Shown: piece by piece, positions 11,907-36,461 of the stretch
Layout of the letters: every line of letters begins with the position of its first letter
How positions within the stretch are numbered: position 1 is the first letter of the stretch
Assembly (NCBI RefSeq): GCF_022201045.2
Contig: NC_068558.1
Coordinates: 13,979,501-14,043,500 of the forward strand
DNA length: 64,000 nucleotides
From: Citrus sinensis
Lineage: Eukaryota > Streptophyta > Magnoliopsida > Sapindales > Rutaceae
Reading direction: 5' to 3'
Translations under genes and position numbers: made by a program
Notes under the pieces: generated by a model
Told to the model about the DNA's origin: nothing
What the model saw: only the letters and a program-made list of their open reading frames with translations
Databases searched by the model: none

Positions 11907-11953
11907 GGCTGTAGACTTGTAGTATTCTTGAGCCAAAATTTGTGTAAGAAAAT

Positions 11954-13537
11954 ATGGATAGACTTGGAGGTTTTCTGCCTGTGCCTTATGTTCAAGAGTT
12001 GGCCAAGAAGCCTATGGCGGTTGTTCCTCCCATATACATGCGTCCGAAGGGAGATACACCCACCATTTCCAATGATACTTTGAATTCAAAGATCCCAGTT
12101 ATCAACATGCAGAGCTTGTATTCTGAAGAATCAATGGATAGTGAACTAGCCAAGCTCGACTTTGCTTGCAAAGAATCGGGGTTTTTCCAGGTAAATTTCT
12201 TTTTCAAAGTTAGTACTTGTCTTTGATGTTCATAATTGCTTCTTCTATCTACCACACAGTTCAAATCATACTGCATGCATTAGGATTAGAAAGTCACACT
12301 CACTAAGGTCAAGTAACTCACAAGCATGAACAAGAGTCCCTTCTTCAGAGAAACATTTTGATCACTGTGGCGTGTTCCGGACAATGAGGAAGAGATGTCA
12401 TGCCTACACATTGGTTTCAAGAAAATATATCAATATGTAAAATAACAATTATACTCTACACTGTCTGTTCTGCACTTTTTTTAATAACTAACTTGAGACT
12501 ATTTTGCTGTTGTATGGTTTTGCTAATAAACTTAACAGGAAACTCTTATTCATTCTTATGTTCGTGTTTCTGGCATATTTAACCAGTTGCAAGGAACAAG
12601 TTCTTTCATTGCATGATAGCAATACGAATATTGCAACAAATTTTGAGTTTATGGATTCTGCGTCATGCTTGGGTGAAGCATTACTTTATAAGAATTGAGT
12701 GAAGCTGTACTGGCTGGTTTTTGATCTTGTAAAGTTTAAAAAAGCAGGACCAAATTTGACGCCTCCTTATTTTCAAAAATTAATTTGACTAACCCCAAAA
12801 AGAATCCTCAATTGAATGCGAAACATGAGTTTTACAATTATTTAAAATCACTATGTAGTTTAATGTTACAGTGATCTTAGTGTACTGGAAATTAATCTAT
12901 GCTTATATACATTGCTGTAATTGAATTTGGTCCCTAAATGAGTCAAATTTGCTGTTACTCCTTTTTTTTTATCATATCAGCTGGTAAATCATGGAGTGAG
13001 CCCATCATTCTAGAGAAATGAAAGAAAGAGATCAAAGAATTCTTCTATCTCAGCATGGAAGAGAAGAAAAAATATTGGCAGGATCCTGGGGAAGTTGAAG
13101 GATTTGGACAAGCCTCTGTTATATCTGAGGAAGAGAAGCTTGATTGAAGTGACTTTTTCTACCTGATGGGTGATCACCCATCCTGTCTAAGGAAACCCTA
13201 CCTATTTCCCCACCTCCCTCCTTGATTTTCCTCACTAAGGGGAGCAGCCCGGAAACGGCAAAATTGGATTGGCTTGGTGAGTCCAGGTTCTCTCTCAAAA
13301 TGTAGAGAGTTTGTGTTTTCGGTACATTTTAAATGCCGCTGGCTTACTTATCTATCGGCACCTTTCATTTGTTGTGTAGGGATACCATGGAAGTTTACTC
13401 AAAGGAGTTAAAAGCTCTAACCATGAATCTGTTATTGAAAATGGCAAAAGTTTTTAACTATCAAGGATGAAGAAATGACAGGATTCTTTGAAAATGGAAT
13501 GCAATCATTGAGGATGAACTACTACGCACTATGTCCT
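11954..13537 (+). pseudogene. SRG1-like 2-oxoglutarate/Fe(II) dioxygenase, copy A (truncated)
   Basis: Exon 1 (11954-12190, 79 codons) is open and carries the family N-terminus up to CKESGFFQ. Exon 2 starts at 12981 (LVNHGVS) but loses one base near 13010, causing a frameshift, and has TGA where siblings have the Trp codon of LDWAD (near 13144). Exon 3 begins near 13380 with another one-base insertion in its first third. It stops being homologous at about 13537, just after the NYY..CP motif, where unrelated DNA begins. The Fe(II) ligands HxD and H, and the RxS 2-oxoglutarate motif, are therefore absent. It cannot make an enzyme; a short exon-1 peptide is possible. Confidence 0.85.
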
Positions 13538-14486: not shown

Positions 14487-14491
14487 GCCAC
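14487..14491. repeat. Target-site duplication (GCCAC), left copy
   Basis: GCCAC directly precedes the 5' LTR and is repeated at 26626-26630 directly after the 3' LTR. A perfect 5-bp duplication fixes the element's ends and shows it integrated as a unit. Confidence 0.92.
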
Positions 14492-14775
14492 TGTTGAGTG
14501 TTAGAAAATGCATATTTATAAAGGAGAAAACCGTCATTTTACATTTTAAGTCTTACTAACAACCCTTACTTTTATATATTTAACCTTCTTGTGATTTAAT
14601 TACATGTGTTTTATTTTAATTAAGTATTTTATGTATTTTAGGGGCATTATAGTCATTTCACAATAAAGGAGAGATCAGACGGCAAAACGGACATCACTTT
14701 TGAACTCAGGACGGTCGAAAACCTTAGGAGGAGCATAAAAGGAAAAATGGCACTATTCACATGTACGGTACTATT

Positions 14776-14932
14776 CACGTGTAAGCATATCAGTGGACGA
14801 AAAATCTCGCGTACGGTGCATGCATCACACAGGATTATTTTCAACCAAACCGCGTTACTGTTCAAAGTCGGGTCAAACCGTGTTACTGTTCATCCGCGTG
14901 GTCAAACCGTGGACTGTTGACTGATGACGTGG
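14776..14932 (+). promoter_or_regulatory. LTR upstream cluster: G-box, ABRE-like site and W-boxes
   Basis: CACGTG (G-box) at 14776-14781. GGTCAAACCGTG occurs twice (14871-14882 and 14900-14911), each containing a W-box core (TTGACC on the minus strand). TTGACT lies at 14917-14922 and the ABRE/TGA-like TGACGTGGC at 14924-14932. The two GGTCAAACCGTG copies belong to an imperfect tandem repeat that includes GTTACTGTTCA. WRKY and bZIP factors recognise such sites, so stress- or defence-induced transcription is a reasonable inference. In the 3' LTR the first copy is mutated to GGTCAAACAGTG. Confidence 0.5.
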
Positions 14933-14991
14933 CGCAATCCTGAGCGTCCAAACTGTTTTTAATCCGATGGCCATGATTTACTCCATGTATC

Positions 14992-14999
14992 TATAAAAA
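14992..14999 (+). promoter_or_regulatory. LTR TATA box
   Basis: TATAAAAA followed directly by a G/C cluster. Transcription would start about 25-35 bp downstream, defining the start of R. The same site is present in the 3' LTR near 25909-25916. Confidence 0.75.
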
Positions 15000-15093
15000 G
15001 GGGGCCTCCCCCCCCTAATTTGATATCTCTGAATCCATTTTTGGGATCCATTTTCTGTAATTCCCTCTCCATCTTGTATTTTCTTCGTATTTT

Positions 15094-15099
15094 AATAAA
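15094..15099 (+). terminator. LTR polyadenylation signal
   Basis: AATAAA about 100 bp downstream of the TATA box, in the right place for the R-region poly(A) signal of the retrotransposon transcript. Confidence 0.55.
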
Positions 15100-15714
15100 T
15101 TCCCATTTTGCCCCTAGTTCAACTATGAGTGGCTAATTTTCTTTCAAGCTTGGGTTGAAGGTGAAGTCTCAACATGTGTCATGAGCTTAATTTGGTAAAT
15201 TTATTTTCTCTTCCCCTCTAATTTTTGTGGATGTTTTGACTTCTCGTCGACAAATAATAATAGTCTTGTCTAGATACCGCCTTGGTTACACCGGCTCTCT
15301 AGTATAAGGTTATTATTATTTGGCACGATAAGCCCTTAGCACCATATTGATTAGAGCGTGGTTCATGAGGTGTGGATTCCCCCCTCATGATTTAATTGGC
15401 ATTAATACGGATTATTTAGCCCATGATGCATGTTGATACGGATCCAGATACCCAAGTACGTCATTTCAATAGAATTCTCTTCAATTTCTTCTCGCCATTT
15501 CAATACCAATTTTAGAATTTATTCTCGCCATTTTAATTTAAGTTGTAGCATATTTCAAATCATTTCCACCATAATTCCAACCACCCATTTACAAAATTAA
15601 TTCTATATATAATTAAAATCCACCTCCTCGTGGGATCGACACTCGTCACCATTGATCTACACTACAACAGATTCGTGCGCTTGCGAGTACATTAAAATTT
15701 GCACAACAAGTTTT

Positions 15715-15732
15715 TGGCGCCGTTGCCGGGGA
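15715..15732 (+). other. Primer-binding site for tRNA-Asp
   Basis: TGGCGCCGTTGCCGGGGA starts 6 nt after the 5' LTR. It is complementary to the 3' end of plant tRNA-Asp including CCA. The same primer is used by the antisense element at 47700-54802, consistent with both being Athila-type. Confidence 0.85.
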
Positions 15733-16084
15733 GGTAAGTAATTTTAATTCATAGAATTAATTTTTGTGAATAATTCCATTTAATTGTTGTCTTGTATTTT
15801 TTTTCTTTAAAAAAAAAAAGTAAATCTACATTTAAAGGTTAGTATTTCTTTTCTTTTTCTCTTCTTTAAAATTCTGTAATTTAATTTTCAATTTATTTTT
15901 CTTTGCAATTTTTGTTTATTTTATTAATTTAATTTTTAGTTAATTTATTTCACGTATTTATTTTTGAGTATTTTTTAGAAAGGTTTTAATAGCGCAATAA
16001 GGTTAGTATTGTAATTTCTCTCTCTTCTTTATTTGTATTTGTATTTGTTTTGTTCCATCTTTATTTTTATTTTATTTATTTTGC
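15733..16084 (+). other. Retrotransposon 5' leader
   Basis: T-rich untranslated leader of about 350 nt between primer site and gag. No ORF or strong structure was noticed; packaging signals would be expected here. Confidence 0.5.
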
Positions 16085-17866
16085 ATGCATGGTCGTAGGT
16101 CATTATCACCTAATCTTGAACCTATAGACCTTGAACTTGAGAAAACACTTCGCACACACAAACAAATTAAAAATAAAATGGATTTGCAACCACAGGAGAG
16201 GCCATTTAAGGACTATTTTAGTCCCTTAGCTAATTTGAGCACGTCATGCATAAGATACCCAAATGTAGCTGCTAGGAGTTTTGAATTAAAACCTAGTGTG
16301 CTAAATTGTCTCCCCACATTCTATGGCTTAGAAAATGAGGACCCATATAATCATTTGAATGATTTTCATGCTATTTGTCAAACATTTAAATATGGGAATT
16401 TTTCAGACGATGATGTTAAACTCAGATTATTCCCATTTTCTTTAAAGGATAGAGCTCGTTCATGGCTTAATACATTGCCTGCTAATAGCATTTCATCATG
16501 GGAACAAATGGTAACAAAATTTTTGAATAAATATTTCCCAGTGCATAAAACCAATGCTATTCGCAGGGAAATCTCGGAGTTTACCCAAAGAGAAGACGAG
16601 CAGTTTTTCGAAACATGGGAGCGATTCAATGGGCTACTCTTGAAGTGTCCACATCATGGGTACGAGAAATGGCACCAATGCCAATACTTTTTGGAGGGAT
16701 TATTGCCGAATGTGCAAGAATGGCTAATGGCAACAAGTGGAGGAGAGCTAATGTCAAAAAGTGCATCAGAGATTTGGGAATTCTTCCAGCGACAAGCGAA
16801 TAATTCCCAACAACGGAGTCGATCACTCAGGAATACTAGAAGAATTAAGGGAGTAAATGAGGTTCAAATTGGCGAGTCAACTTCGGGAATCAAAGAAGTT
16901 AAGGAGATGGTTGAGGGTCTTGCTCGACAAATAGCATCGTTATCGACTGCTAAATCAACAGAACCACATGACCATGACTCATACTCAGATCAAGCCAATG
17001 CCATAGGTGTAATGAGAAAGCCATCAAATTACAACCCATACTCCAACACATATAATCCTGGATGGAGAGACCACCCCAATTTTTCATGGTCTCAAGGATT
17101 CCAACAGAATGGACCAGCAGCTCCAGCTCCACCAATGCAACAAATTCCTCAAAATCCTCAAGCCTCTCAGCCACCATTCAGACCATACAATCAGAACCAG
17201 AATTACTCTCAACCCAGACCATGGGAGGATTCATTCCAGAATCTCAAGAATCTTACTCACTCTACGATTGAGCAACAGAATCGCACCATTGATGGACTAC
17301 GAAATGAGTTGAGAGCGGGCTTCAACTTACAAGCCCAATCAGTTTCAAGCCTCGAGAAGATGGTAGGACAACTTGCTTCTTCAGTTCAGACCTTGGCAAT
17401 GACTGTTGAGAAAGGTAAATTTCCAAGTCAACCAGTGCCTAATCCTAAAGGAGTACATGAAGCAAGTACTAGTTCACCACAGCAACATGGAGAGGTCAAA
17501 GCAGTAATGACCTTGCGAAAAGGAAAAGAAGTCGACAATAAAGTGGAGATGCCAGTGATTAAAGAAAATCAAATTGTACTTGTAAATGCTGAGGACTCAC
17601 CACCGGAGGACAGAGAAGAAACCAACCCACGAGAATATGTTCCGAAAGCTCCATTTCCTCAGAGGTTAGCTAAAGGAAAGAAGGGAAAATCCACAGGTGA
17701 GATTCTCGAAATCTTCAAACAGGTAAGTGTTAACATCCCTTTACTTGATGCTATAAAGCAAGTTCCATCTTATGCCAAGTTTCTTAAAGACCTGTGCACT
17801 AAAAAGAGAAACATGCATGTTCAAAAGAAGGCATTTTTAACAGAAAACGTTAGTTCTATTCTCTAA
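16085..17866 (+). CDS. gag: Gag polyprotein region
   Basis: ATG at 16085 opens a 593-residue frame ending at TAA 17864-17866. The capsid-like retrotransposon gag domain occupies about residues 70-245 (LPTFYGLENEDPYNHLNDF, LRLFPFSLKDRARSWL, FFETWERFNGLLLKCPHH). The conserved NPYSNTYNPGWRDHPNFSWS stretch follows at about 318-337. Athila gags normally have a CCHC knuckle just before that stretch; here the region (about 293-315) has no cysteine, so the knuckle is lost. The C-terminal part (about 560-593) is the usual lead-in to protease. Frame and sequence continue into pol without a shift, so the TAA is the only interruption of a gag-pol polyprotein. Gag would form the particle that packages element RNA. 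Confidence 0.88.
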   Translation: MHGRRSLSPNLEPIDLELEKTLRTHKQIKNKMDLQPQERPFKDYFSPLANLSTSCIRYPNVAARSFELKPSVLNCLPTFYGLENEDPYNHLNDFHAICQTFKYGNFSDDDVKLRLFPFSLKDRARSWLNTLPANSISSWEQMVTKFLNKYFPVHKTNAIRREISEFTQREDEQFFETWERFNGLLLKCPHHGYEKWHQCQYFLEGLLPNVQEWLMATSGGELMSKSASEIWEFFQRQANNSQQRSRSLRNTRRIKGVNEVQIGESTSGIKEVKEMVEGLARQIASLSTAKSTEPHDHDSYSDQANAIGVMRKPSNYNPYSNTYNPGWRDHPNFSWSQGFQQNGPAAPAPPMQQIPQNPQASQPPFRPYNQNQNYSQPRPWEDSFQNLKNLTHSTIEQQNRTIDGLRNELRAGFNLQAQSVSSLEKMVGQLASSVQTLAMTVEKGKFPSQPVPNPKGVHEASTSSPQQHGEVKAVMTLRKGKEVDNKVEMPVIKENQIVLVNAEDSPPEDREETNPREYVPKAPFPQRLAKGKKGKSTGEILEIFKQVSVNIPLLDAIKQVPSYAKFLKDLCTKKRNMHVQKKAFLTENVSSIL

Positions 17867-20800
17867 CATAAAATTCCTTTAAAATGCAAAGACCCAGGCT
17901 CCCCCACTATCTCATGTAGTATAGGGAACCACACAATTGAGAATGCTTTGTTGGATTTAGGAGCTAGTGTAAATCTGTTGCCTTACTCTGTATTTGTGAA
18001 ACTTGGACTTGGAGAATTACACCCAACTCCAGTGGTATTACAACTTGCAGATCGGTCCACAAAAATACCTCGTGGTATTGTGAAGGACGTGCTTATCCAG
18101 GTAGACAAGTTCTATTTTCCTGTTGATTTCATTGTAATTGACACTCAACCAATACAAGATTCAAGGAAGCACATCCCCATTATTCTAGGCCGACCTTTCT
18201 TGGCAATTGCGGATGCTCACATTCAATGCAGGACTGGAAATATGCAATTGTCCTTTGGCAACATGACTATGGAGCTGAACATCTTCAACATTGCCAAACA
18301 ACCTCACAATGCAGATGATGGAATTGTTGATGTGGATTTAATTGAAGCATTAGTTGATGACACTTTTGTTTCAAACCTTAGTGATGATCCTTTACAAACA
18401 TGTTTAACTCACTTTGGTTTGGATTTTGATATTGACAGATCGGTCGATGAGGTCAACGCCCTGGTTGACTCAACACCATCCATGGACACTAATAAATGGA
18501 AGTCAAGAGTTGAACAACTAGCACCATCAGAGAAGAAACTCATCCCATCATCAGAATCACCACCGAAACTCGAGCTCAAACCATTACCCAACACATTGGA
18601 ATATGCATTTTTGGGGGAAGAAAGTTCTCTGCCGGTAATCATCTCATCATCCCTCAATGACGAACAAAAAGGTAAGTTGTTGGATGTTTTAAAAGAGCAC
18701 AAAGGAGCATTAGGATGGACCATAGCGGACATAAAAGGTATAAACCCTGCAGATTGCATGCATTACATTCACCTTGATGAAAATGCTAAATCTACTAGGG
18801 AAATGCAACGTCGGTTAAATCCTAATATGAAAGAAGTGGTTAGAACTGAAGTCCTTAAGCTATTAGATGCAGGTATCATTTACCCAATTTCTGATAGTTC
18901 ATGGGTCAGTCCTGTACAAGTTGTCCCCAAAAAGTCAGGAGTCACAGTAGTTACGAATGTTGATAATGAATTGATACCAACTAGAGTGACTACAGGATGG
19001 CGTGTATGCATTGATTATAGAAAGTTGAATTCTGTCACACGTAAAGACCATTTTCCTTTACCATTTATTGATCAAATGCTTAATAGATTAGCAGGCCATG
19101 AATTTTATTGCTTTCTAGATGGCTACTCAGGATACAATCAGATCCCCATAGCACCAAAAGATCAGGAGAAAACTACTTTCACTTGCCCTTTTGGCACTTT
19201 TGCATATAGGAGAATGCCATTTGGATTATGTAATGCACCTGCTACATTCCAACGATGCATGTTGAGCATTTTTTCTGATATGGTTGAACGATTCCTTGAA
19301 GTCTTTATGGATGATTTTTCTGTCTTTGGTGACTCGTTTGATCAATGTTTACATCATCTAACATTAGTTCTGCAGAGATGTATCGAGAAGAATTTAGTCT
19401 TAAATTGGGAGAAATGCCATTTTATGGTAAAACAAGGTATTGTTCTCGGTCACATCATTTCGAGCAAAGGTATTGAGGTTGACAAAGCCAAGGTGGATCT
19501 CATTTCTAATCTTCCTCCACCCAAAACAGTCAGAGAAGTAAGATCTTTCCTTGGGCATGCTGGGTTCTATAGACGTTTCATTAAAGATTTTAGCAAAGCT
19601 TCTAGACCCTTATGCAATTTACTTGCTAAGGATGTACCTTTTGTCTTTGATGATTCATGTCTTGTTGCGTTTGAAAAATTAAAGCATTTGTTGACATCAT
19701 CACCCATCATTCAGCCCCCGAACTGGAAATTACCATTTGAGCTCATGTGTGATGCATCTGATTATGCAGTAGGAGCAGTATTAGGACAAAGAGTTGATCG
19801 AATTCCCCACGTTATTTACTATGCTAGTATGACATTGAATAATGCACAGTTGAACTATTCAACTACTGAAAAAGAAATGCTAGCAGTAGTGTTTGCATTA
19901 GAAAAATTTCGATCGTATCTCATTGGTTGTAAAATAATTATATTCACAGATCATGCTGCTCTTAAATATCTTCTCACAAAGAAAGATGCAAAAGCCAGAC
20001 TAATTCGTTGGGTGTTACTTTTGCAGGAATTTGACTTGGAATTCAAAGATAAAAAAGGGACAGAAAATGTTGTGGCGGACCACCTCTCTCGTCTCCATCT
20101 TGACACAATTACAGAGCCATTAATATTGAATGAGTCATTTCCAGATGAACAATTAATGAGTGTGGAAGTATTACCTTGGTATGCTGATATAGTTAATTAT
20201 CTTGTTACAGGTAAACTTCCAGAGCATTGGACCAAGCAAGACAAGGCTAAATTCTTTGCAGAGATAAAGAATTTCTTTTGGGATGACCCGTATTTGTTCA
20301 AGTATTGTGCAGACCAAATTGTTAGACGATGTGTCCCAGAAAATGAAATTCAGAATATCCTTTCATTCTGCCATGAACAAGCTTGTGGAGGCCATTTCAG
20401 CGCTAAGAAAACAGCGACTAAAGTTTTACAATGTGGTTTCTATTGGCCAACTATATTTCGAGACGCTTACACTTTCTGTTCTTCATGTGATAGGTGTCAA
20501 CGAATGGGGAGCATTACGCGAAGGAATATGATGCCACTAAATCCAATTTTAGTGGTTGAGATTTTTGACGTATGGGGTATCGACTTCATGGGACCCTTTC
20601 CCCCGTCTTTTGGCCATCAATACATATTAGTTGCTGTTGACTACGTATCAAAATGGGTAGAAGCAATTCCATGTAGGACCAATGATCGCAAGGTGGTGAT
20701 AGCATTTTTGAAAAGCAACATTGTTTCACGCTTTGGATTCCCACGAGCAATAATCAGTGATGGTGGTGCCCACTTTTGTAACAAAGCATTCAAAGCACTT

Positions 20801-21472
20801 TTGACAAAGTATTCAATCATACACAAAGTGGCGACCCCGTATCATCCGCAAACCAGTGGCCAAGTTGAGATCTCCAATCGAGAAATAAAGCACATATTAG
20901 AAAAGACGGTGAGGCCAGACAGGAAAGATTGGTCATTAAGACTTGATGATGCATTATGGGCATATAGAACGGCTTTCAAGACCCCGATTGGGATGTCACC
21001 CTACAGGCTAGTGTATGGAAAAGCTTGCCACCTACCTGTGGAACTCGAGCATCGTGCATATTGGGCCATCAAGAAATTCAATTTTGACATTCAGCAAGCC
21101 AGCTCAGAAAGAAGATTACAACTGGCAGAACTTGAAGAAATTCGCAATGACGCATACGAAAATGCCAAGATTTACAAGCAACGAATGAAAGTCTTTCATG
21201 ACAAGCACATTATGAGAAAATCTTTCACTCCAGGTCAGAAAGTGCTTTTATTCAATTCTCGCTTGCACCTATTCCCAGGTAAGTTACGCTCTCGTTGGTC
21301 TGGTCCATTTATTGTTCATACTGTTTTTCCACATGGGGCAATTGAAATTAAGGACCCAAATAACGGTGTCACGTTTAAAGTCAATGGTCAAAGATTAAAG
21401 CCATATTTAGAGTACCAAGCACATGGAGAAGACACCGAAATAAATTTAAGTGACCCACCAGATTTGAATTGA
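17867..21472 (+). CDS. pol: Pol: protease, reverse transcriptase, RNase H, integrase (same frame as gag)
   Basis: Directly after the gag TAA the same frame stays open for 1201 codons with no ATG until well inside protease, so it should be made by readthrough or was once fused to gag. Protease: [15 protein letters not shown] near 17951 and IILGRPFL. Reverse transcriptase: [22 protein letters not shown] and the catalytic FMDDFSVFG near 19304. RNase [13 protein letters not shown] through [11 protein letters not shown]. Integrase: an HHCC zinc region near 20371-20505, then D in GIDFMGPF, D in ISDGGAHF and E in GQVEIS, with 35 residues between the last two as in the DD35E triad. The C-terminal region [21 protein letters not shown] binds DNA or chromatin in relatives. 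All catalytic residues I can check are present. Confidence 0.9.
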
Positions 21473-21587
21473 TTTTTTTCTTTTTGTTGATTTGATTTTT
21501 CTTTCTTCCTTTTTATTTGTTAATTGAAATTATTTTTGCATAAGTGTGTTTGTTTTTCCATTAAGTTTTTTCTTATCATTATTAATC

Positions 21588-21821
21588 ATGAGTACCATGC
21601 TTAAACCGTTCCTCCTGAACATTCTTAAACCACTTCAACGTGTCAAAACTCATCTCAAAAGGCAGATTCAATTTTGTAAAACACATCGCATTTGGGCTCT
21701 ACAACCACCAGAGTTAGTAGCCTATGTTGAGGGTTTAGAAAGCCAACTCAGAGATATTGAGAGAAGTGTTTACGACATCCAGTTGGAGCTTGAGGTAAAT
21801 TCAATACGAGGACGATTTTGA
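21588..21821 (+). CDS. Accessory ORF 1: small basic protein of unknown function
   Basis: ATG at 21588 opens 77 residues to TGA, 115 bp downstream of pol. The N-terminal half is basic with leucine/proline repeats (MLKPFLLNILKPLQRVKTHL). The C-terminal half (VEGLESQLRDIERSVYDIQL) has a heptad-like pattern and could form a short coiled coil. I recognise no family. It is listed because the frame is ATG-led, lies in the accessory region of a young element and precedes two longer frames. It could be a remnant of a larger protein. Confidence 0.45.
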   Translation: MSTMLKPFLLNILKPLQRVKTHLKRQIQFCKTHRIWALQPPELVAYVEGLESQLRDIERSVYDIQLELEVNSIRGRF

Positions 21822-21877
21822 TTTTCTTTGTGTGTTCTAATTTGTTTTTCTGTTTGTGTGCTTTAGTTTGTTACCCC

Positions 21878-21930
21878 GGTGAAGTGGCGGATAACGGTAC
21901 TCCGTGACAGTCAAGTCGGTTACTTCAGTT
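21878..21930 (+). other. Possible structured RNA segment before accessory ORF 2
   Basis: A G/C-rich island in otherwise AT-rich spacer. tgaagt (21880-21885) pairs with acttca (21922-21927), enclosing an acgg/ccgt stem (21894-21897 and 21902-21905) with a tact loop. It lies just upstream of the ATG at 21963. A role in translation of the downstream frame or in RNA packaging is only inference. Confidence 0.3.
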
Positions 21931-21962
21931 TCCCATAATAACTGATATTCTGAGGCGAAGGT

Positions 21963-22520
21963 ATGGATAGAAACGAGATTCTAGCAAAGCTTCACAAGCG
22001 ATTCCCTTCACTTCCTCAGAATACCCTCCTTACGATCTATAAAGCTCGGTCCGAACGCATGCGATTACTCATGAGGCATAACATACCTGCAGACATCCGT
22101 TGGTTAATCGAGGCTAAATTACGATTGGCAGGTGAGTTACCTCCTAAATTTATTGCATACATGCCTGGTTGTGGTAAAGGAAATTATGCAAGAAAACGAC
22201 GAGCTCGAAGAATTTCTGTTGCTTGTCATAAGTGTGCCAGAATGAGTTGCGATAGAAACCCATGTTCTTTAGGAATGGTGTCTGATAACAGAGAAGATAA
22301 GATTCAATTCATTAGGGATGGCTTGAATAAGGAGTCATTGGATGATATCCTTCTGTCTCTTGAAACGCATCCCAGTGGATATGTGCAAGGAGCGATTCTC
22401 CAGTTATGGCCATTATTTCAGAAAGAGCATGCACGATATAGTCTCGGGAATCTGACTATAAACGACCCTGTTTGCCAGTTTATAAGAAAACTGGTTAGGA
22501 AGCCTATCCTCGACCCATAG
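21963..22520 (+). CDS. Accessory ORF 2: cysteine-rich basic protein, carlavirus-CRP-like C4 zinc-finger candidate
   Basis: ATG at 21963, 185 residues, TAG at 22518. Residues 1-68 are mostly helical in composition. Residues 75-83 form an arginine-rich stretch (YARKRRARR). This is followed by a cysteine cluster C88-x2-C91-x4-C96-x4-C101 and then SLGMVSDN..., ..FIRDGL. The order (basic YAR-RRA stretch, CxxC, then C-x4-C, then a G-x-S-x-N segment and FI..G) matches my memory of the nucleic-acid-binding cysteine-rich proteins of carlaviruses (Pfam Carla_C4). The loop between the two cysteine pairs is shorter here. Those proteins bind nucleic acid, suppress RNA silencing and can enter the nucleus. 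Homology is by eye and unproven. Alternatively it is an independent zinc-binding protein replacing the nucleocapsid knuckle missing from this gag. The frame is intact. Confidence 0.6.
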   Translation: MDRNEILAKLHKRFPSLPQNTLLTIYKARSERMRLLMRHNIPADIRWLIEAKLRLAGELPPKFIAYMPGCGKGNYARKRRARRISVACHKCARMSCDRNPCSLGMVSDNREDKIQFIRDGLNKESLDDILLSLETHPSGYVQGAILQLWPLFQKEHARYSLGNLTINDPVCQFIRKLVRKPILDP

Positions 22521-22843
22521 AGGGCGTTCAAGCCGTTTCTGGACGTAAAACCAGAGGAAGATGTGAGCCACAGTCGCAACTACGTGTAAATATGCTTTTA
22601 CTTTACTGTTATTTTATTTCATTTCACTGTTGTTTTATTGTTTGCATTATTGTCTTTAATAATTTTATTACTGTTTGCTTTTTCCTTTTTACTGTTTCCT
22701 TTTTGACTCGCGAGCCATGTGCTTCACACGTTATTTGACACTGACATGTTACCTCATTCACAGCTGTGACCCACTATCACCAAGACTCTTAAATGTGATT
22801 TCTTTTGTCAAACACTCACAAATTGTTTTTGAGAAATATTCCA
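22521..22843 (+). other. Spacer between accessory ORFs 2 and 3
   Basis: T-rich, 323 bp, no convincing ORF. An open frame begins with TTG at 22805 in frame with the LOG ORF, but the first ATG is at 22844. The spacer may hold a promoter or splice acceptor for the downstream frame; none is clear. Confidence 0.4.
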
Positions 22844-23512
22844 ATGGCAGCTACTCCCAATAGACAATTCAAGAACATTTGTGTGCTTTCTGGATTTACC
22901 TATGGCAAACATAAAGAGTTCGTGGAGGCAGCCATAGATCTTGGTCGAAGTATAGCAGCGAGAAAATTACACTTAGTGTATGGAGGAGGTAACCGAGGGT
23001 TATCAAAAATGGTCTCAGAAGCAGCTTTTATCAGAGGAAGTCAAGTGTTAGGCATCATCCCAAGAGTCCTAAAACCATTGGGCAGTTCGTCTGACTCATC
23101 AACTGGAGAAGAGTTAGTCGTCTCAGGTATGCAAGAAAGAATAACTGAAATGCTTAATCATGCTGATGCTTTTATTTTCCTTCCAGGAGATCTTGCAACA
23201 CTAGAGGCACTTATGACACTAGCATCTTGGGCCCATCTGCACATCCACCAGAAACCCATCGGTTTGTTAAATGTCAATAACTTTTATGATGGCTTTATCG
23301 CATTTCTTAACCATGCAATAAAAAACTATTTCATTCCTTCTAATGTGAAAAAACTCTTTATTTGTGCTCACACTGCTAATGAGCTACTTGATATGTTACA
23401 AGCTTATAAACCGGAGCCAGACCCCTGGACCTTTGTGTTGGAGCGACCAAATAATGATGGTAACAGTAGCCGCAGTAAGAAGTACAAATTAGATTTAACT
23501 CTCCGCCTGTAA
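22844..23512 (+). CDS. Accessory ORF 3: LOG-family (LONELY GUY) cytokinin riboside 5'-monophosphate phosphoribohydrolase homologue
   Basis: ATG at 22844, 222 residues, about the length of plant LOG enzymes and intronless, as expected for retro-captured cDNA. Residues 10-215 align by eye over the whole LOG fold: FKNICVLSGFTYG, then LVYGGGNRGL (44-53), VLGIIPRVL (68-76), MQERITEM (96-103, keeping the catalytic Arg99), ADAFIFLPG (107-115), WAHLHIHQKPIGLLNV (129-144). LOG enzymes release active cytokinin base from its ribotide. However, the hallmark PGGxGTxxE is here PGDLATLEA (114-122), changing two glycines and the catalytic Glu (now Ala122). Ribohydrolase activity is therefore doubtful; it could bind nucleotides or act on LOG dimers. 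The frame is open and lies inside a young element, so it moves with it. The family call is firm; function is not. Confidence 0.88.
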   Translation: MAATPNRQFKNICVLSGFTYGKHKEFVEAAIDLGRSIAARKLHLVYGGGNRGLSKMVSEAAFIRGSQVLGIIPRVLKPLGSSSDSSTGEELVVSGMQERITEMLNHADAFIFLPGDLATLEALMTLASWAHLHIHQKPIGLLNVNNFYDGFIAFLNHAIKNYFIPSNVKKLFICAHTANELLDMLQAYKPEPDPWTFVLERPNNDGNSSRSKKYKLDLTLRL

Positions 23513-25396
23513 ATATTTTCTTCTGTGTTTGCACCACCTAGGTGATGTCTTCTAAACTCTACTTCTTTCATTTCAAACATTGAGGACAATGTTTCGTTCT
23601 GGTTGGGGGGAGGGAATAGTCGACAATTGTGGAATTTTGGTTAAGTTTTTACTAATTTTTGTTGTAGAAACTAACTGTTGCTAACTTTTTGTGTTGAAGA
23701 TGGCTGAATATGGAGTGTAGTGACTCTAAAAACGCATCTTCATCGTTTATAAAAAAAAAAAAAATTCAGACATTTTCTTTTTCTTTATTATGTGTTTATG
23801 TTTATTTTTCTTCTTTAATTTCTTCTCTATAAATATACATTTTCCAACTTTTGAGTCAAAGATGGCTGAATATGGAGTGTAGTTCCTCTAGAAACGCATC
23901 TTCTTTTAAAAAAAAAAAATCATTTTCGTTTTCTATCATTTTCATTTTCACATTTCTGCATGCATATTTTCCTTTCATGTTTAGAATAGGTTGGGGGGTA
24001 GAATGATGTTTAAAAAAAAAATGTGTGATTTGTTTTAACATTGGATGACATGATTAATTTCAAATTTTAGTATTTGTATTATCTTTGGTCTTAAGTGATG
24101 TTACGCTATGTTTGCTACTTTACATGTTGATGTCGGAGACAAATGTGAGTTGCTTGAAGGAATGAACATGTCATAATAAGTACCAAGTGAGTTTTTGAGC
24201 CTATTATTTTTTTTGGAGAATAACCCTTTTGCCCACTCTTTATACAGCTTAGCAGTTTATTATTTTATACACGATCTCTAAATTACTTTTGAGTTAACCC
24301 TTAAAAAAAAATTGTAAAATAAAAAAAAAAAAGAAAAAAGAAAAAGAAAAAAGAGTGTGTTGCTACATTTGGAGGCCCATCTAACTAGTAGATATGGAAG
24401 ATTATTTAGAGCCCTAAAAGACGATGGAGAGGCCATCTTTGATCCGTTTGAGCCTTTCAAGCCATCCCTTTTATTTAATATCCATAGTTAACCCTTTTGA
24501 GCCTTTAAAAAAAAAAAAAAACTTTTCTTTGTCAACTTATCATCTTGACCCACTCCGATTTGAAGTATTACCCGATATCTTATAAGTTCCATCACCTATT
24601 TATGTTTGAGAAAATGTAAATAATTATTTTGTTCAGTGAAGTTATGCCAAATAAAAGCAAAAAAAAAAAGCAAAAAAAAAAACAAAAACAAAAACAAAAA
24701 CAAAAGTTGTTGTTTCAAAAGAATAAAAATAGGTGAAATCCACCTTGCAACTTCCAAAAAAAAAAAAAAAAAAAAATTCTCTGCATTTTTCTCAAACATA
24801 CACTTTGTTTTCCTTATTTTCCTTCTTTGTTAGCCATGTCCCTAGCCTACGTTTCGTCCTAATAAAAGTCCTTCTTGATTTTAGGGAACTATAGTTTGAA
24901 GTAGAAGCTAGTTATATGGGCTAAAAAGATGTAGTGATGCATAATTAAAAAAAAAAAAGATAAATAAAGTGGGTTGACTAACATTTTATTTGACTTGAGA
25001 TCGTATTATTTCTAAGCTGAGGGCATATTTATTTCATCTTGGTGAGAGCATGTGATATCACTTCTTTATTATTTTCTCTCTCAATTACCATTCATTGGAG
25101 TGACTATTTTTATTGGGATTAATTTATTTGTGAGAGTGTCACTACTTCCAGTGAGATTTTGGGGTTTGACATGTCATTCTTGAGAGTAGCTAAAACAAAG
25201 TCTACTGGGCTAATTCATGTGGATGGTTGATGTGGGTGTGATGTTGCTTTAGACTGGAGATAATGCTTATACTTTTATTTGATTGCTATCATTAATCTGA
25301 TGGAATAAATACGAGTGTTTCTATTAAAACAAAAAAAAAAATATTTTGAATTTGAATTTTGTTTTCGCTTTATTTGCTAGGGACTAGCAATAAGCT
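23513..25396 (+). other. Noncoding 3' spacer of the element
   Basis: About 1.9 kb rich in A- and T-runs, with many small low-complexity frames and no protein resemblance. It contains two 44-bp copies of a repeat (23698-23741 and 23860-23903, beginning agatggctgaatatggagtg). It also has two internal copies of the 10-mer ggttgggggg (23601-23610 and 23989-23998) that is found at the functional polypurine tract. The acattgaggacaatgttt segment near 23577 resembles what often precedes the polypurine tract in Athila/Tat elements, so this spacer may have grown by duplicating the original 3' end. Confidence 0.6.
23698..23903 (+). repeat. Direct 44-bp repeat, two copies
   Basis: Copies at 23698-23741 and 23860-23903, 162 bp apart, differ at about four positions. 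Each follows T-rich DNA and ends in aacgcatcttc. Function unknown. Confidence 0.75.
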
Positions 25397-25408
25397 GGTT
25401 GGGGGGTG
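25397..25408 (+). other. Polypurine tract (plus-strand primer)
   Basis: GGTTGGGGGGTG lies directly against the TG of the 3' LTR. The G-run interrupted by TT is the usual form in Athila/Tat elements. Confidence 0.8.
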
Positions 25409-26625
25409 TGTTGAGTGTTAGAAAATGCATATTTATAAAGGAGAAAACCGTCATTTTACATTTTAAGTCTTACTAACAACCCTTACTTTTATATATTTAA
25501 CCTTCTTGTGATTTAATTACATGTGTTTTATTTTAATTAAGTATTTTATGTATTTTAGGGGCATTATAGTCATTTCACAATAAAGGAGAGATCAGACGGC
25601 AAAACAGACATCACTTTTGAACTCAGGACGGTCGAAAACCTTAGGAGGAGCATAAAAGGAAAAATGGCACTATTCACATGTACGGTACTATTCACGTGTA
25701 AGCATATCAGTGGACAAAAAATCTCGCGTACGGTGCATGCATCACACAGGATTATTTTCAACCAAACCGCGTTACTGTTCAAAGTCGGGTCAAACAGTGT
25801 TACTGTTCATCCGCGTGGTCAAACCGTGGACTGTTGACTGATGACGTGGCGCAATCCTGAGCGTCCAAACTGTTTTTAATTCGATGGCCATGATTTACTC
25901 CATGTATCTATAAAAAGGGGGCCTCCCCCCCCTAATTTGATATCTCTGAATCCATTTTTGGGATCCATTTTCTGTAATTCCCTCTCCATCTTGTATTTTC
26001 TTCGTATTTTAATAAATTCCCATTTTGCCCCTAGTTCAACTATGAGTGGCTAATTTTCTTTCAAGCTTGGGTTGAAGGTGAAGTCTCAACATGTGTCATG
26101 GGCTTAATTTGGTAAATTTATTTTCTCTTCCCCTCTAATTTTTGTGGATGTTTTGACTTCTCGTCGACAAATAATAATAGTCTTGTCTAGATACCGCCTT
26201 GGTTACACCGACTCTCTAGTATAAGGTTATTATTATTTGGCACGATAAGCCCTTAGCACCATATTGATTAGAGCGTGGTTCATGAGGTGTGGATTCCCCC
26301 CTCATGATTTAATTGGCATTAATACGGATTATTTAGCCCATGATGCATGTTGATACGGATCCAGATACCCAAGTACGTCATTTCAATAGAATTCTCTTCA
26401 ATTTCTTCTCGCCATTTCAATACCAATTTTAGAATTTATTCTCGCCATTTTAATTTAAGTTGTAGCATATTTCAAATCATTTCCACCATAATTCCAACCA
26501 CCCATTTACAAAATTAATTCTATATATAATTAAAATCCACCTACTCGTGGGATCGACACTCGTCACCATTGATCTACACTACAACAGATTCGTGCGCTTG
26601 CGAGTACATTAAAATTTGCACAACA
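25409..26625 (+). repeat. 3' LTR of the LOG-bearing element
   Basis: 1217 bp, same length as the 5' LTR, TGTTG...CAACA, followed by the GCCAC duplication at 26626-26630. Its TATA box could drive transcription into downstream DNA toward the dioxygenase array. Confidence 0.92.
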
Positions 26626-26630
26626 GCCAC
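26626..26630. repeat. Target-site duplication (GCCAC), right copy
   Basis: Matches 14487-14491 exactly. Confidence 0.92.
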
Positions 26631-28690: not shown

Positions 28691-29761
28691 TCGGAGGAAC
28701 AAAAGCTTGATTGGGCTTACACTTTCATCATGAACACACTTCCAACCCATCTGAGGTAACCACACTTATTTTCTAAGCTCCCTCTTTCCCCTCAGGTCTA
28801 AAACACTCTTCCTCTCCGTCTGATGGTGATCATGCAGTTTTAGTCTGGATTGAGTCCTTGATTTTGATTTGCGAACAATGAGTACATATCTAACCTTCTA
28901 ATGTTGCATCTTCTTTTTCTTGTAGAGACACCTTAATTGGAAGTTTACTCAATGAAGTTAGAACCTTTAGCCATGAATCCGATATCGCAAATGGGAAAAG
29001 TTTAAATATCAAAGATCAAGAATTGACGGATTTCTCTGAAAATGCAATGCAAACAGTAAGAATGAACTATTACCCTCAGTGTCCATAGCCAGAGAAGGTT
29101 ATAGGCCTCACACCTCATTCTGATGGCTCTACTCTTACAATTCTACTACAAGTTTGTGAAGTAGAAGGTCTGTAGATAAAGAAGGATGGAAAGTGGACTC
29201 CCGTTATCCTACTTCGTAATGCTTCCATTGTCAATATCGGAGACATGTTTGAGGTATTAACTATAGTATATTACCTTAGCTTAGGCATTTACATTTATGA
29301 CTTATCATGCATCACAATATCAGAATACAGTTTTTAGGTGATTCGTAATAGGAGAAGCAATATAACTAAATTACCCTTCAAAGGCTTGTTTTGACTGTTC
29401 GTTTTTCAAACTCCCTGAACTGTTGGCAAGAACGGTGCAATTTGAGCCTCAAGTTCAAGAATACTAATTTAGTAATTAACAATTGAAGAACGGATATGTG
29501 ATAACTCATATGCTTTTAGAATTTTACATTGCGGTGTATAAACCAATGGGAAATACCGTAGCATCACAAGAAAGAATTTCCATCAGCACATTTTACAAAG
29601 CGAGATATGAAGAACACCCAGCATCCAGTTTGATCTCTGAAGAAACACCCGCGTTGTTTAGAAGAGTGACAGTTGAAGAATATCTCAGGGGCCGATTTGC
29701 TCGTGTGCTTAGGGAAAAGTCTTGCCTGGATGTCCTGAGAATTCAACATGGTCAAGGCTAG
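28691..29761 (+). pseudogene. SRG1-like dioxygenase, copy B (5'-truncated)
   Basis: Homology starts abruptly inside exon 2 ([11 protein letters not shown]) and continues through exon 3 (from 28926) and exon 4 to TAG at 29759-29761. Exon 1 and most of exon 2 are missing. Exon 3 has an early frameshift and TAG codons where siblings have Gln (in CPQPEK and LQIKKD). Exon 4 joins the NGxYRSI segment directly to the ERLSI segment, removing about 30 bases that encode the second iron-ligand His. It retains the HSD part of the site. It is a dead copy. Confidence 0.85.
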
Positions 29762-30631: not shown

Positions 30632-30938
30632 TTAGGTGTAAGGTAACATGGGAATTACAAATAATTAATTGACTAGCTAATTTGTTGCTTCTGATTATCA
30701 ATAATTGTCTTTCTTTCTCGTGCCCATATTTTACTATCATTTTGAATGGTCCCCTTGAAGTAATCCAGATCAGCCATTTGCATAAAAATATATGATGAAT
30801 GGTTAGGCGGAGGGTGCTGATTTGTTAGAAAATAATTCTTTTTAACTCTTGCGATTGTCTGCAGTCTGCACCCTGCACTCTTCTCCTATAACCAATACAA
30901 AAGCTGTAGCAATCTTGAGAGGATTTTTGGAATAAAAG

Positions 30939-33067
30939 ATGGCCAAGATTGGAGGTTCTCTGCTTGTTCCTTGTGTTCAAGAGTTGGTCAAGAATCCTAT
31001 GTTAGTTGTCCCACCCAGATACATACGTCCGGATCAAGATTCACCAATCAATTCTGATGATACTTTGATTTCACAAATACCAGTTATTGACATGCAGAGC
31101 TTGCTTTCTGAAGAATCAATGGATTCTGAGTTAGCCAAGCTCGACTTCGCTTGCAAAGAATGGGGTTTTTTCCAGGTAAAATGATTTAGCAAAGTTTGAA
31201 AATTTTTTTAACTAGAACATGCTTGTCTGTGATTAAGAATAAAAAAAAAATCCTCGCAAAACTCTCAATCACAGTATTTATTTTAGAAATCCAGTCTCCA
31301 TTGATGTTAGCATATCATGAGTTTTCAGTTTTTCCCATCTTGTTCTTTCGCTGTTTTCAGTACTTTTAGGACTGCAGCAGCTTGTGAGATGTGAAGGAAG
31401 TTGTCTCTGTGTTTGTTTGTACAAATTATGAGGAGATATGAGAAGAAAACACCCATCATTTATTTTTGAAACCCAGATTCCATTGATTTATTTGTTTTTG
31501 ACTTTCTTTATTGCTTTACCTTTCCACCAGAGATGGATTGGGCTAGGATTAATTTGTGATTTTCTCATTCCTAAAAGTAACTGGGCAGTAAGTATGAAAA
31601 GATTCTCTTGACAAATTTCACCTACTCTGTCTCAATAACTTTTGGTAGCTAATGAGAAATATGCTTCTGTCAAAATGTGATAAAAGATATACTAATTTTA
31701 TAAGATTCCTGGAGATTATTTGCTGTTACATGGTTTTGCAAATTCAATTTGTGAACCAAACTAGAAGAACTTCATGCTTATTATTGTTATTCAAGAATAT
31801 TGAACTTTCTGCAAAACAATGAGTGAAAAACACTTGTAGAAACTAATCATTGGGAAGATATATAAGCAAATTAAGATTGGTGGTTCATGCAACAGCAATG
31901 TTCTAGGTTGAAATGCAACAAATGCTTTCAGCCATCTTTGACGGTAAATCTTCTCTAAATCAGTCAAATAAGTTGCAATCTGTCTCAGTAAAACACCTGG
32001 ACCACTGTGAACTTAGTGGCATGAGTATTAAATCTTAGATGCTGTTCATTCCTGCATCATTTCAGCTGGTAAACCATGGAGTGAGCTCGGCATTTCTAGA
32101 GAAATTGAAGAAAGAGGTTCAGGGATTCTTCAATCTAAGCATGGAAGAAAAGAAAAAATATTGGCAGCATCCAGGAGATGTAGAAGGATTTGGACAAGCC
32201 TTTGTTGTATCTGAGGAACAAAAGCTTGATTGGGCTGACATTTTCTCCATGATCACTCTTCCAGTTCATCTGAGGAAGCCACACTTATTTCCTAAGCTTC
32301 CTCCTTTGCTCAGGTTCTCTCTGTTTGTGCTTGATATGGATTTGCAAACAAAAAGAGCAAATTAAACCTTCTATGATTCTATCTAATGCTTTATCTTCTT
32401 TTTTCTTCTAGAGACACCTTGGAAGTTTACTCGATGGAGTTAAAATCTCTGGCCATGAACCTGATATCGAAAATGGGAAAAGTTTTAAATATCAAAGATG
32501 AAGAATTGAGAGAATTCTTTGAAAATGGTTTCCAATCAATGAGGATGAACTATTACCCTCCATGTCCTCAGCCGGAGAAGGTTATGGGCCTCACCCCTCA
32601 TTCTGATGGCTCTGCTCTTACCATTCTGCTACAAATCAATGAAGTAGAAGGTCTCCAGATCAAGAATGATGGAAAATGGATTCCTATCACACCGCTGCCA
32701 AATGCTTTCATTGTCAACATCGGAGACACATTGGAGGTAATAATTATGATTACTTTCCTTGGCATTTTTATGTCCCTTCTCATGTGCTCTAATATTTTTA
32801 ACATTGCAGATTATAACCAATGGGACATACCGTAGCATTGAGCATCGTGCAATTGTAAACTCTTTACAAGAAAGACTTTCCATTGCCACATTTTACACAA
32901 AGAGATTAGATGGTGAAATATATCCAGCATCCAGTTTGATCTCTGAAAAAACTCCTGCATTGTTTCGAAGAGTGACAGTTGAAGAATACTTTAGGAACCG
33001 GTATGCTCGTGAGCTTAGGGGAAAATCTCAACTGGATGACCTGAGAATTCAAAATGGTCAAGGCTAG
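30939..33067 (+). CDS. SRG1-like 2-oxoglutarate/Fe(II)-dependent dioxygenase, copy C (intact)
   Basis: Four exons, 30939-31175, 32066-32313, 32412-32736 and 32810-33067, join in frame with GT-AG introns to 355 residues, the usual length for this family. N-terminal DIOX_N region: [29 protein letters not shown]. Core: [31 protein letters not shown] supplies the first His and the Asp iron ligands. [10 protein letters not shown] supplies the second His, and RLSIATF the Arg/Ser that holds 2-oxoglutarate. The closest remembered families are SRG1 and codeine O-demethylase-like enzymes (DOXC class), soluble cytosolic oxidases of specialised metabolites by hydroxylation or demethylation. The substrate cannot be read from sequence. 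All motifs and splice sites are normal, so this is the best functional copy of the array. Confidence 0.88.
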
Positions 33068-34416: not shown

Positions 34417-36461
34417 ATGGCCCAGATTGCAAGATCTCTCCTTGTGCCTTGTGTTCAAGAGTTGGTCAAGAATCCTGCGTTAGTTGTCCCCGACAGATAC
34501 ATACGTCCAGATCAAGATTCACCCCTCATTTCTGATGATACTTTGATTTCACAGATACCAGTTATTGACATGCAAAGCTTACTTTCTGGAGAATCAATGG
34601 ATTCTGAGCTAGCCAAGCTCGACTTCGTTTGCAAAGAATGGGGTTTTTTCCAGGTATAATTCTTTAGCAAAATTAGAAAATTGTTTCGCCAGAACATGCT
34701 TGTTTGTGAACAAGAATCGAGAAATATGCAAATTCTCAATCAAATAGGCAAAATTAAAATTCATATTTATTTCTTAAACCCACGTATCATTGATGTTAGC
34801 AGATCATGGTTTCACTTTTCGGTGTTGTCAGTGGCTTAGGACTGCAGCTTGTGAAAAGAAGAACTTGTCTCTGGTTTATTTATTATTGACTTTCTATACT
34901 GCTTTACCTTTCCCCCTCCAGACATGGGTTAATTAGCTATTTCATTCCTAAATGTCAAACACGCAATATGTATTAAAAAGACGGTCTTGAGAAATTTCAC
35001 CTCCTCTGCCTCAATAGCTTTTGGTACCTTATGAGAAATATGCTTCTGTCAAAATTTTAAAAGATATACTATAGTAAATTGTGTAAGACCTCTTAGAAAA
35101 TGTACTCATTTCTGTATTCAATGTTGCAAATTTACTCTAATTTAAAGATAATTCGAAGTAACATTGAGATTATTTGCTGTTGTATGATTTTTCAAATTCT
35201 AGGTGTGAACAAACCACAAGAACTTCATGCTTATTATAGTTATTCTAGAATAACCGAAATTTCTCCGATAGAATGAGTAAAAACACCTGTGGAAACTAAT
35301 TGTTGAGAAGATTTAAATGTACCAAATGCTTTTAGCTATCTTTGATGGTAAATCTTATCTCCAAATCAGTCAGATAAGTTGCAATCTGTCTTAATAAAAC
35401 ATCTGGACTCTTGTGAGCTTAGTGGCGCGATTATTAAATCTTTCCTGTATTTCTTTCAGCTGGTAAATCATGGAATGAGCACAGCATTTCTAGAGAAATT
35501 AAAGAAAGAGGTTGAGGGATTCTTCAATCTCAGCATGGAAGAAAAGAAAAAATATTGGCAGCATCCAGGAGATATAGAAGGATTTGGACAAGCCTTTGTT
35601 GTATCCGAGGAACAAAAGCTTGATTGGGCTGACCTTTTCTCCATGATGACTCTTCCAGTTCATCTGAGGAAGCCACACTTATTTCCTAAGCTCCCTCCTT
35701 CCCTCAGGCTCTCTCTCTCTCTCTCTCTCTCTCTGTTTCTACGTCAATGTCATTTTGATTTGCAAACAAATAAAGGATAGTGCATCTTCTTTTCCTGTAG
35801 AGAGACCTTGGAAGTTTACTCAATGGAATTAAAAACCCTAGCCGAGAACCTAATATCGAAAATGGGAGAAGTGTTAAATATCAAAGATGAAGAAATGAGA
35901 GAATTCTTTGAAAATGGAGTGCAAGCAATGAGGATGAATTATTACCCTCCATGTCCTCAGCCCGAGAAGGTTATGGGCCTGTCGCCGCATTCTGATGCAG
36001 CTGCACTTACCATTCTGCGACAACTTAATGAAGTGGAGGGTCTCCAGATAAAGAAGGATGGAAAGTGGATTCCTGTTACCCCACTCCCGGATGCTTTCAT
36101 TGTCAACATTGGAGACACATTGGAGGTAATAATTATTATAAATTACCTTAACCTGGCATTTTTATGCGCTTGCTTATGTGCTTTAATAATTTTTGCATGG
36201 CAGATTATAACCAATGGGACATACCCTAGCATTGAGCATCGCGCAGTTGTAAACTCTGTACAGGAAAGACTTTCCATTGCCACAGCTTACTCACTGAGAT
36301 ATGATGGTGAAGTATATCCTGCCTCCAGTTTGATCTCTGAAAAAACTCCTCCTTTGTTTAGAAGAGTGAGAATTGAAGAATACTTTAGGAGCCGGTATGC
36401 TCGTGAGCTTAGGGGAAAATCTCAGCTGGATTCCCTGAGAATTCAACATAGTCAAGGCTAG
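34417..36461 (+). CDS. SRG1-like dioxygenase, copy D (open, but with a GC splice donor)
   Basis: Exons 34417-34653, 35460-35707, 35801-36125 and 36204-36461 mirror copy C exactly in length and join to 355 residues. Iron and co-substrate motifs are intact (HSD in [31 protein letters not shown]). Differences from C include Asp for Pro before RYIRPDQD, and Ala-Ala after HSD. The exon 2 donor is CAG|GC instead of CAG|GT and runs into a (CT)n tract (35709-35734). GC donors can work, but the rest of the site lacks the usual AAGT, so splicing may be weak or shifted. If it splices, it is an active paralogue of copy C, possibly with another substrate preference. Confidence 0.8.
35709..35734. repeat. 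(CT)n microsatellite in intron 2 of copy D
   Basis: About 13 CT units starting at the altered splice donor. A similar run occurs in copy E near 37788-37810, so it predates or recurs between the paralogues. Confidence 0.85.

Follow-up and report, generated by a model that had tools for sequence, protein, structure and literature searches.

Introduction

GAG-POL is considered sufficient for the transposition of long terminal repeat (LTR) retrotransposons, and the role of additional open reading frames (ORFs) is debated (PMC7264820). A YgdH (LONELY GUY, LOG) domain has been reported in LTR consensus sequences of Citrus sinensis and C. clementina (PMC9289625, agreeing with Steinbauerova et al., 2011), and also in P. 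trichocarpa when the filter of that study is left out. The presence of a LOG domain in Citrus LTR elements is therefore not new. Here we describe a LOG-derived gene (22844..23512, plus strand) of a very abundant Athila-like retrotransposon in C. sinensis, found in a stretch of 64,000 nucleotides (contig NC_068558.1, positions 13,979,501 to 14,043,500) that we call the window and in whose coordinates all positions are given. The elements of PMC9289625 share domain family, host genus and Gypsy type with this one. The section of that paper on the domain is confined to detection, and active site, tail, neighbouring ORF, selection and fossil copies are absent from it. A literature search, with subscription papers and supplements outside its reach, found no report of motif loss, an LxLxL tail, fossil copies or a viral-like neighbour.

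The gene is retained under selection, its catalytic motif is gone and its product ends in a sequence resembling a repression tag. The protein therefore probably serves the element otherwise than by making hormone.

A LOG-Derived Gene in the Mobile Unit

The 222-residue, intronless ORF is recognized by the Pfam family Lysine_decarbox (3.7e-28, 98.8 bits with a cut-off of 27) and by TIGR00730 (4e-37), and its matches in the PDB are Arabidopsis LOG3 (2a33, 3e-45) and LOG8 (1ydh, 1.8e-40). An earlier note on this DNA, made from its letters, had described a full-length intronless LOG-like frame between pol and the 3' LTR, and these profile matches bear that description out. The NCBIfam equivalog for cytokinin phosphoribohydrolase (NF058542) gives 91.5 bits, below its cut-off of 300, which plant LOGs may or may not reach. 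The predicted structure retains the LOG fold, with low model confidence at residues 193-222.

The genome searched for further copies comprises 299.7 Mb on 11 contigs. The 150 scored candidates, ranked from 2111 first-look candidates and hence biased to intact copies, are 97-100% identical to the window LOG, and 149 of them are free of internal stops. The codon pattern PGD[LF]AT[LF]E plus Ala or Thr has 862 matches in the genome and 0 in the reversed control, a count of motifs rather than of intact LOG genes. Twenty copies, all from one contig (C1) and chosen for codon variety among the listed pattern sites, were fetched; in 17 of them a virus-like ORF of the same orientation precedes LOG at a distance of no more than about 1 kb, the exceptions being L011, L018 and L022. 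The LOG gene thus belongs to the mobile unit of the element, as the earlier note had proposed. Local insertion of LOG into an older element is rejected, given the copies throughout the genome and the neighbouring ORF in most of the fetched ones.

Four element families were sampled, namely A (with the window copy), B (L012 and L015), C and D (L048). Family B is 66-67% identical to the window element in pol, 67% in the virus-like ORF and 71-74% in LOG, and the LOG of family C shows about 78% identity to that of the window. Matches to the window LOG among the proteins of Citrus x changshan-huyou reach 100%; in some proteins of this plant (P0170, P0194, P0203) LOG and the virus-like ORF are predicted as fusions. 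Among viral sequences, one stretch in the IMG/VR scan fitted a pattern, with no relative among the matches, and 0 PHROGs families were matched by the two proteins compared.

Replacement of the Active Site

The motifs PGGYGTxEE, YGGGS[IV]GLMG and RK[AS]EM are present in all 120 cellular plant LOGs compared, which are the best listed relatives of one Citrus LOG. None of the three occurs in any of the 120 element-type proteins listed out of 737, many of them truncated or decayed and those with a named source all from Citrus, and 63 of these read PGDLAT[LF]E. GGYGTxEE is retained by all seven Citrus LOG genes found, the LOG8-like one included, and PGGxGTxxE by all 80 bacterial LOGs examined, some of which had been retrieved with patterns covering the same region. 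In the window LOG this motif reads PGDLATLEA (residues 114-122, codons at 23183..23209; cellular PGGYGTLEE), and it is lost in all four sampled families. The numbering of the Corynebacterium LOG fits the window protein: the catalytic Glu122 has become Ala, the phosphate-binding Gly116 and Gly118 have become Asp and Ala, and in the prenyl/adenine site Gln, Ile and Thr stand in place of His97, Lys100 and Glu125, while the catalytic Arg99 is unchanged, as are Met96, Thr119, Glu121 and Trp129.

The 20 fetched copies were selected by a pattern requiring the motif, so that their residues 114-121 are no evidence; the evidence for motif loss comes from the independently found copies L001-L008, L038 and L045-L048 and from the database proteins. 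When Glu was permitted at position 122, the pattern found six places, of which two belong to old copies, three to copies of the modern type and one to a cellular gene. The replacement also calls for caution in annotation: more than 40 of 120 listed element-type clusters are named cytokinin riboside 5'-monophosphate phosphoribohydrolase in UniRef.

Selection and the C-Terminal Tail

Selection was estimated as w, the ratio of nonsynonymous to synonymous divergence (dN/dS) from Nei-Gojobori counts, for 12 LOG sequences picked for open frames (the single stop codon of L014 was skipped). It lies at 0.09-0.21 in the six pairs among four family A copies, next to 0.12 for pol in the one family A pair compared, and at 0.15-0.27 between families, where frames are open at a dS of 0.48-0.96. 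The LOG-derived gene is kept by purifying selection across the sampled families, and this selection is similar to that on pol in the copies compared. The view of the earlier note that LOG was retained while the element transposed is supported.

The protein ends in LDLTLRL (codons at 23489..23509), which has the LxLxL sequence of EAR-motif repressors. LxLxL occurs within the last 14 residues of 86 of the 120 element proteins, compared to 0 of the 120 cellular LOGs. Across seven representatives, residues 191-214 drift (pN 0.215, 7 of 24 invariant), and residues 215-222, few as these sites are, drift less (pN 0.053, 5 of 8 invariant). LxLxL is an EAR repression motif of plants, with DLELRL as the minimal SUPERMAN motif (PMC6479872), and binding to TOPLESS has been reported for an oomycete and a smut effector (PMC7446885, PMC8126959).

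Probable Origin of the LOG-Derived Gene

In two old copies, L049 and L050, the LOG is intronless and decayed and still reads PGGLGTLEE, so that the loss of the catalytic motif seems later than the capture. L050 sits just 3' of a remnant of the virus-like ORF; the sequence retrieved around L049 shows no such ORF. Downstream, their broken and unmended frames read ...MMDLNLHM and ...MD(stop)NLHL before the stop, so that an ending of the LxLxL kind may predate the loss of catalysis. The suggested order is that the gene was captured first, that its catalytic motif was lost afterwards and that the element then amplified widely.

A tree of 42 rows was built from 9 element LOGs, 20 loci out of the bacterial set of 80, 4 proteins out of the plant database set of 120, and the LOGs of Arabidopsis (2) and Citrus (7); two rows of a family E are short and decayed. 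In it the element LOGs group together in a single clade (99/97), set off by a long stem and placed next to the plant LOGs. The split of plants and elements from bacteria is supported at 93/80, which is not decisive, and positions of the element LOGs inside plants, with the LOG8 pair or with other plant LOGs, are not rejected (approximately unbiased test, p 0.352 and 0.493); the tree is therefore compatible with more than one donor. We read it as a single old capture; as the seven Citrus LOG genes found are multi-exon and the element LOG is intronless, the route was probably through RNA. A recent copy of a Citrus LOG is rejected, since the clade of the element LOGs does not fall inside any Citrus LOG. 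The host gene capture put forward in the earlier note is thus plausible as to the host, given an intronless gene that stands beside plant LOGs, yet the event is old.

The Virus-Like Neighbour and Possible Splicing

The ORF upstream of LOG (21963..22520, plus strand), which like the tail was missed by the earlier note, encodes a cysteine-rich protein of 185 residues with a basic stretch and a C-x2-C-x4-C-x4-C cluster. The window protein matches Carla_C4 weakly (E=0.016, 15.6 bits, below the cut-off of 20.9). At E<=0.01, 34 of 39 aligned family members match Carla_C4 and 33 of 39 match Viral_NABP, and the curated cut-offs of both families are passed by six of ten scanned relatives. In the own genome one of 150 scored candidates passes the Carla_C4 cut-off (27.6 bits), on a copy that also carries LOG, compared to none in 14 control genomes. 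The search for relatives retained 257 of 324 candidates at E<=10, of which 120 were listed; Xanthoceras, Acer and Populus are named among these, so that the ORF looks wider spread than LOG. Its predicted structure (pLDDT 59.5) is too poor for a structure search, and a literature search found no paper in which LTR retrotransposons are linked to the names of the viral NABP families.

Between families A/A' and B the virus-like ORF has a w of 0.24-0.32. A small ORF further upstream (21588..21821, plus strand, 77 residues), which belongs to no family known to us, is common to family B copies and L023 (51-57% identity), with a w of 0.25-0.29 versus the window copy (0.25-0.28 for three B copies) and of 0.97 in one pair within family A. 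Between families A and B, synonymous sites are saturated in pol but unsaturated in LOG and in the virus-like ORF (one B copy, L015, compared with two A copies, the window and L030). The accessory module may accordingly have been exchanged between element lineages by recombination.

A candidate splice donor, GAG/GTAAGT, was read from the sequence directly after the primer binding site (15731..15739, plus strand), and an alignment of ten copies places a candidate acceptor AG 5' of LOG (22762..22763), which reads CAG in seven and AG in nine of them and is preceded by a pyrimidine-rich stretch. Both sites are consistent with spliced messages. A noncoding block 5' of the virus-like ORF (about 21885-21945) is well conserved in five of six aligned copies (A, A', B and L023; L026 differs) and may be a splice acceptor or a control element.

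Proposed Function and Alternative Explanations

We favour, at a probability of roughly 0.45, a LOG-fold pseudoenzyme that acts as a TOPLESS-recruiting, host-directed adaptor beside the virus-like protein, both made from spliced RNAs. The element protein would still have the LOG fold and some of the nucleotide pocket and would have lost cytokinin release, and its LDLTLRL tail would recruit co-repressors of the TOPLESS type, turning it into a small host-directed adaptor. With the upstream virus-like, putatively nucleic-acid-binding protein it would form a two-gene accessory module favouring the element, which could, for instance, damp host responses or silencing where the element is transcribed. 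Both proteins would be translated from spliced subgenomic RNAs using the donor after the primer binding site. The stronger version seems to us rather doubtful; here the two genes would constitute a host-manipulation module, one coding for a nucleic-acid-binding protein that plant RNA viruses also have and that may suppress silencing, the other for a hormone enzyme converted into a non-catalytic, TOPLESS-recruiting repressor; if true, it would represent an endogenous element with effector-like accessory genes.

Several observations weigh against the adaptor. Glu is found at position 122 in three modern-type genome copies, and the catalytic Arg99 is retained, so that another substrate is possible. 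The tail comparison relies on eight codons, L048 ends in LDLTLW, where the fetched sequence runs out, and LxLxL is a short motif, from which TOPLESS binding is only proposed. LOG has a w of 0.65 for L020/L014, 0.34-0.48 for family A versus L014, 0.24-0.29 for family A versus L020 and 0.28-0.49 in family C pairs, values that would be expected for decaying copies, and the virus-like ORF has a w of 0.37-0.93 within family A, where changes are few.

The retained Arg99, together with Thr119 and Glu121, and the conservation of the replacement residues Asp116, Leu117 and Ala118 could also speak for an enzyme re-tuned to another nucleotide substrate or to phosphohydrolase chemistry, as could the riboside that is the main product of some plant LOGs (PMC11593424). 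We regard this as unlikely, since the catalytic Glu and the phosphate-loop glycines are lost. The reading of the earlier note amounts to an enzymatically active LOG by which free cytokinin would increase in cells expressing the element, a view in line with the family match, the predicted fold, the purifying selection and the retention of Arg99 and parts of the adenine site. It does not fit the fact that the window LOG and the sampled modern families have other residues in place of the catalytic Glu and of two glycines of the phosphate loop, nor the changes at His97, Lys100 and Glu125 of the prenyl site; alanine at AMP-binding and catalytic residues of CgLOG, the Corynebacterium enzyme, S19A excepted, nearly abolished activity (PMC4979012). 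A working cytokinin-activating enzyme is on these grounds very unlikely.

LOGs work as dimers whose active site lies where the subunits meet, and a dimer pocket has been described (PMC4979012). A protein predicted to keep the LOG fold around a replaced active site might hence dimerize with host LOGs as a dominant-negative subunit and lower cytokinin activation, but an identity of 35-39% to plant LOGs makes mixed dimers doubtful and the conserved LxLxL would be left unexplained, which renders this quite unlikely. That the gene is a neutral passenger copied with the element would agree with the rarity of the domain among the plant elements surveyed (PMC9289625) and with the broken state of several sampled copies. 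Low w within and between families and frames that are open at the synonymous divergence between families make this highly improbable.

Element Architecture and Surroundings

The retrotransposon (14492-26625, plus strand, 12.1 kb) is delimited by paired LTRs of 1217 bp (14492..15708, with TG...CA ends, and 25409..26625) and by the target-site duplication GCCAC on both sides (14487..14491 and 26626..26630) that the earlier note had already pointed out. Its primer binding site TGGCGCCGTTGCCGGGG (15715..15731) is presumably of the tRNA-Asp type, and a polypurine-tract-like stretch precedes the 3' LTR (25397..25408). The gag ORF (16085..17866; Retrotrans_gag, 6.3e-20) is followed by an open pol frame (17948..21472) with protease, reverse transcriptase, RNase H and integrase, the protease domain remaining at 20.4 bits below the Pfam cut-off of 24.3. 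The order reverse transcriptase, RNase H, integrase, with no Tat-type second (archaeal-type) RNase H found by Pfam, fits the Athila lineage (Ty3/gypsy, OTA). The Athila ORF-1 domain PF03078 has no match in the four scanned ORFs, and it occurs in only 16% of Athila elements (PMC6317226). Three sense ORFs, of 77, 185 and 222 (LOG) residues, lie between pol and the 3' LTR, and a direct repeat of 71 nt (23687-23757 and 23849-23919, 82% alike) is located between LOG and the 3' LTR. The LTRs differ at 7 of 1217 sites, in keeping with the young element of the earlier note. Plant substitution rates are of the order of 1e-8 to 1e-9 per site per year, at which a divergence of 0.6% places the insertion very roughly between 0.2 and a few million years ago.

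The window contains a second, decayed Athila-like element (47655-53124, minus strand), with a pol 54-59% identical to that of the first. It has no match to LOG or the virus-like ORF, and a look for direct repeats of at least 80 nt within 42-58 kb found none. Pieces that we take to resemble exons of 2-oxoglutarate-dependent dioxygenases flank the first element on both sides (11938-12224, 13388-13453, 28938-29003, 30923-31209 and 35808-36461).

Comparison With Known Systems

The element protein differs from the plant LONELY GUY enzymes AtLOG3 (2a33) and AtLOG8 (1ydh) by the replaced PGGxGTxxE, the LxLxL tail and the intronless gene. Gypsy elements of orchids that contain a 2-oxoglutarate dioxygenase domain likewise combine an LTR element with an enzyme domain of other origin than gag and pol; the title of PMC9289625 describes the orchid domain as functional, whereas the LOG of the Citrus element is without its catalytic motif. 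For the neighbouring ORF, the cysteine-rich proteins of mandariviruses, small zinc-finger viral proteins of which one, from a citrus virus, is a silencing suppressor (PMC12172455), may serve as a possible model; the neighbour differs in being retrotransposon-encoded and 185 residues long. The role of additional ORFs may be approached here with a gene whose family origin is clear, whose changes can be put in a suggested order, which is under selection like that on pol in the copies compared and for which a candidate mechanism can be tested. Pathogen effectors with EAR motifs, such as HaRxL21 and Jsi1, are comparable in that a short repression-type motif is proposed to recruit TOPLESS; the Citrus protein differs from them in being encoded by a retrotransposon, and its recruitment of TOPLESS is proposed from the motif.
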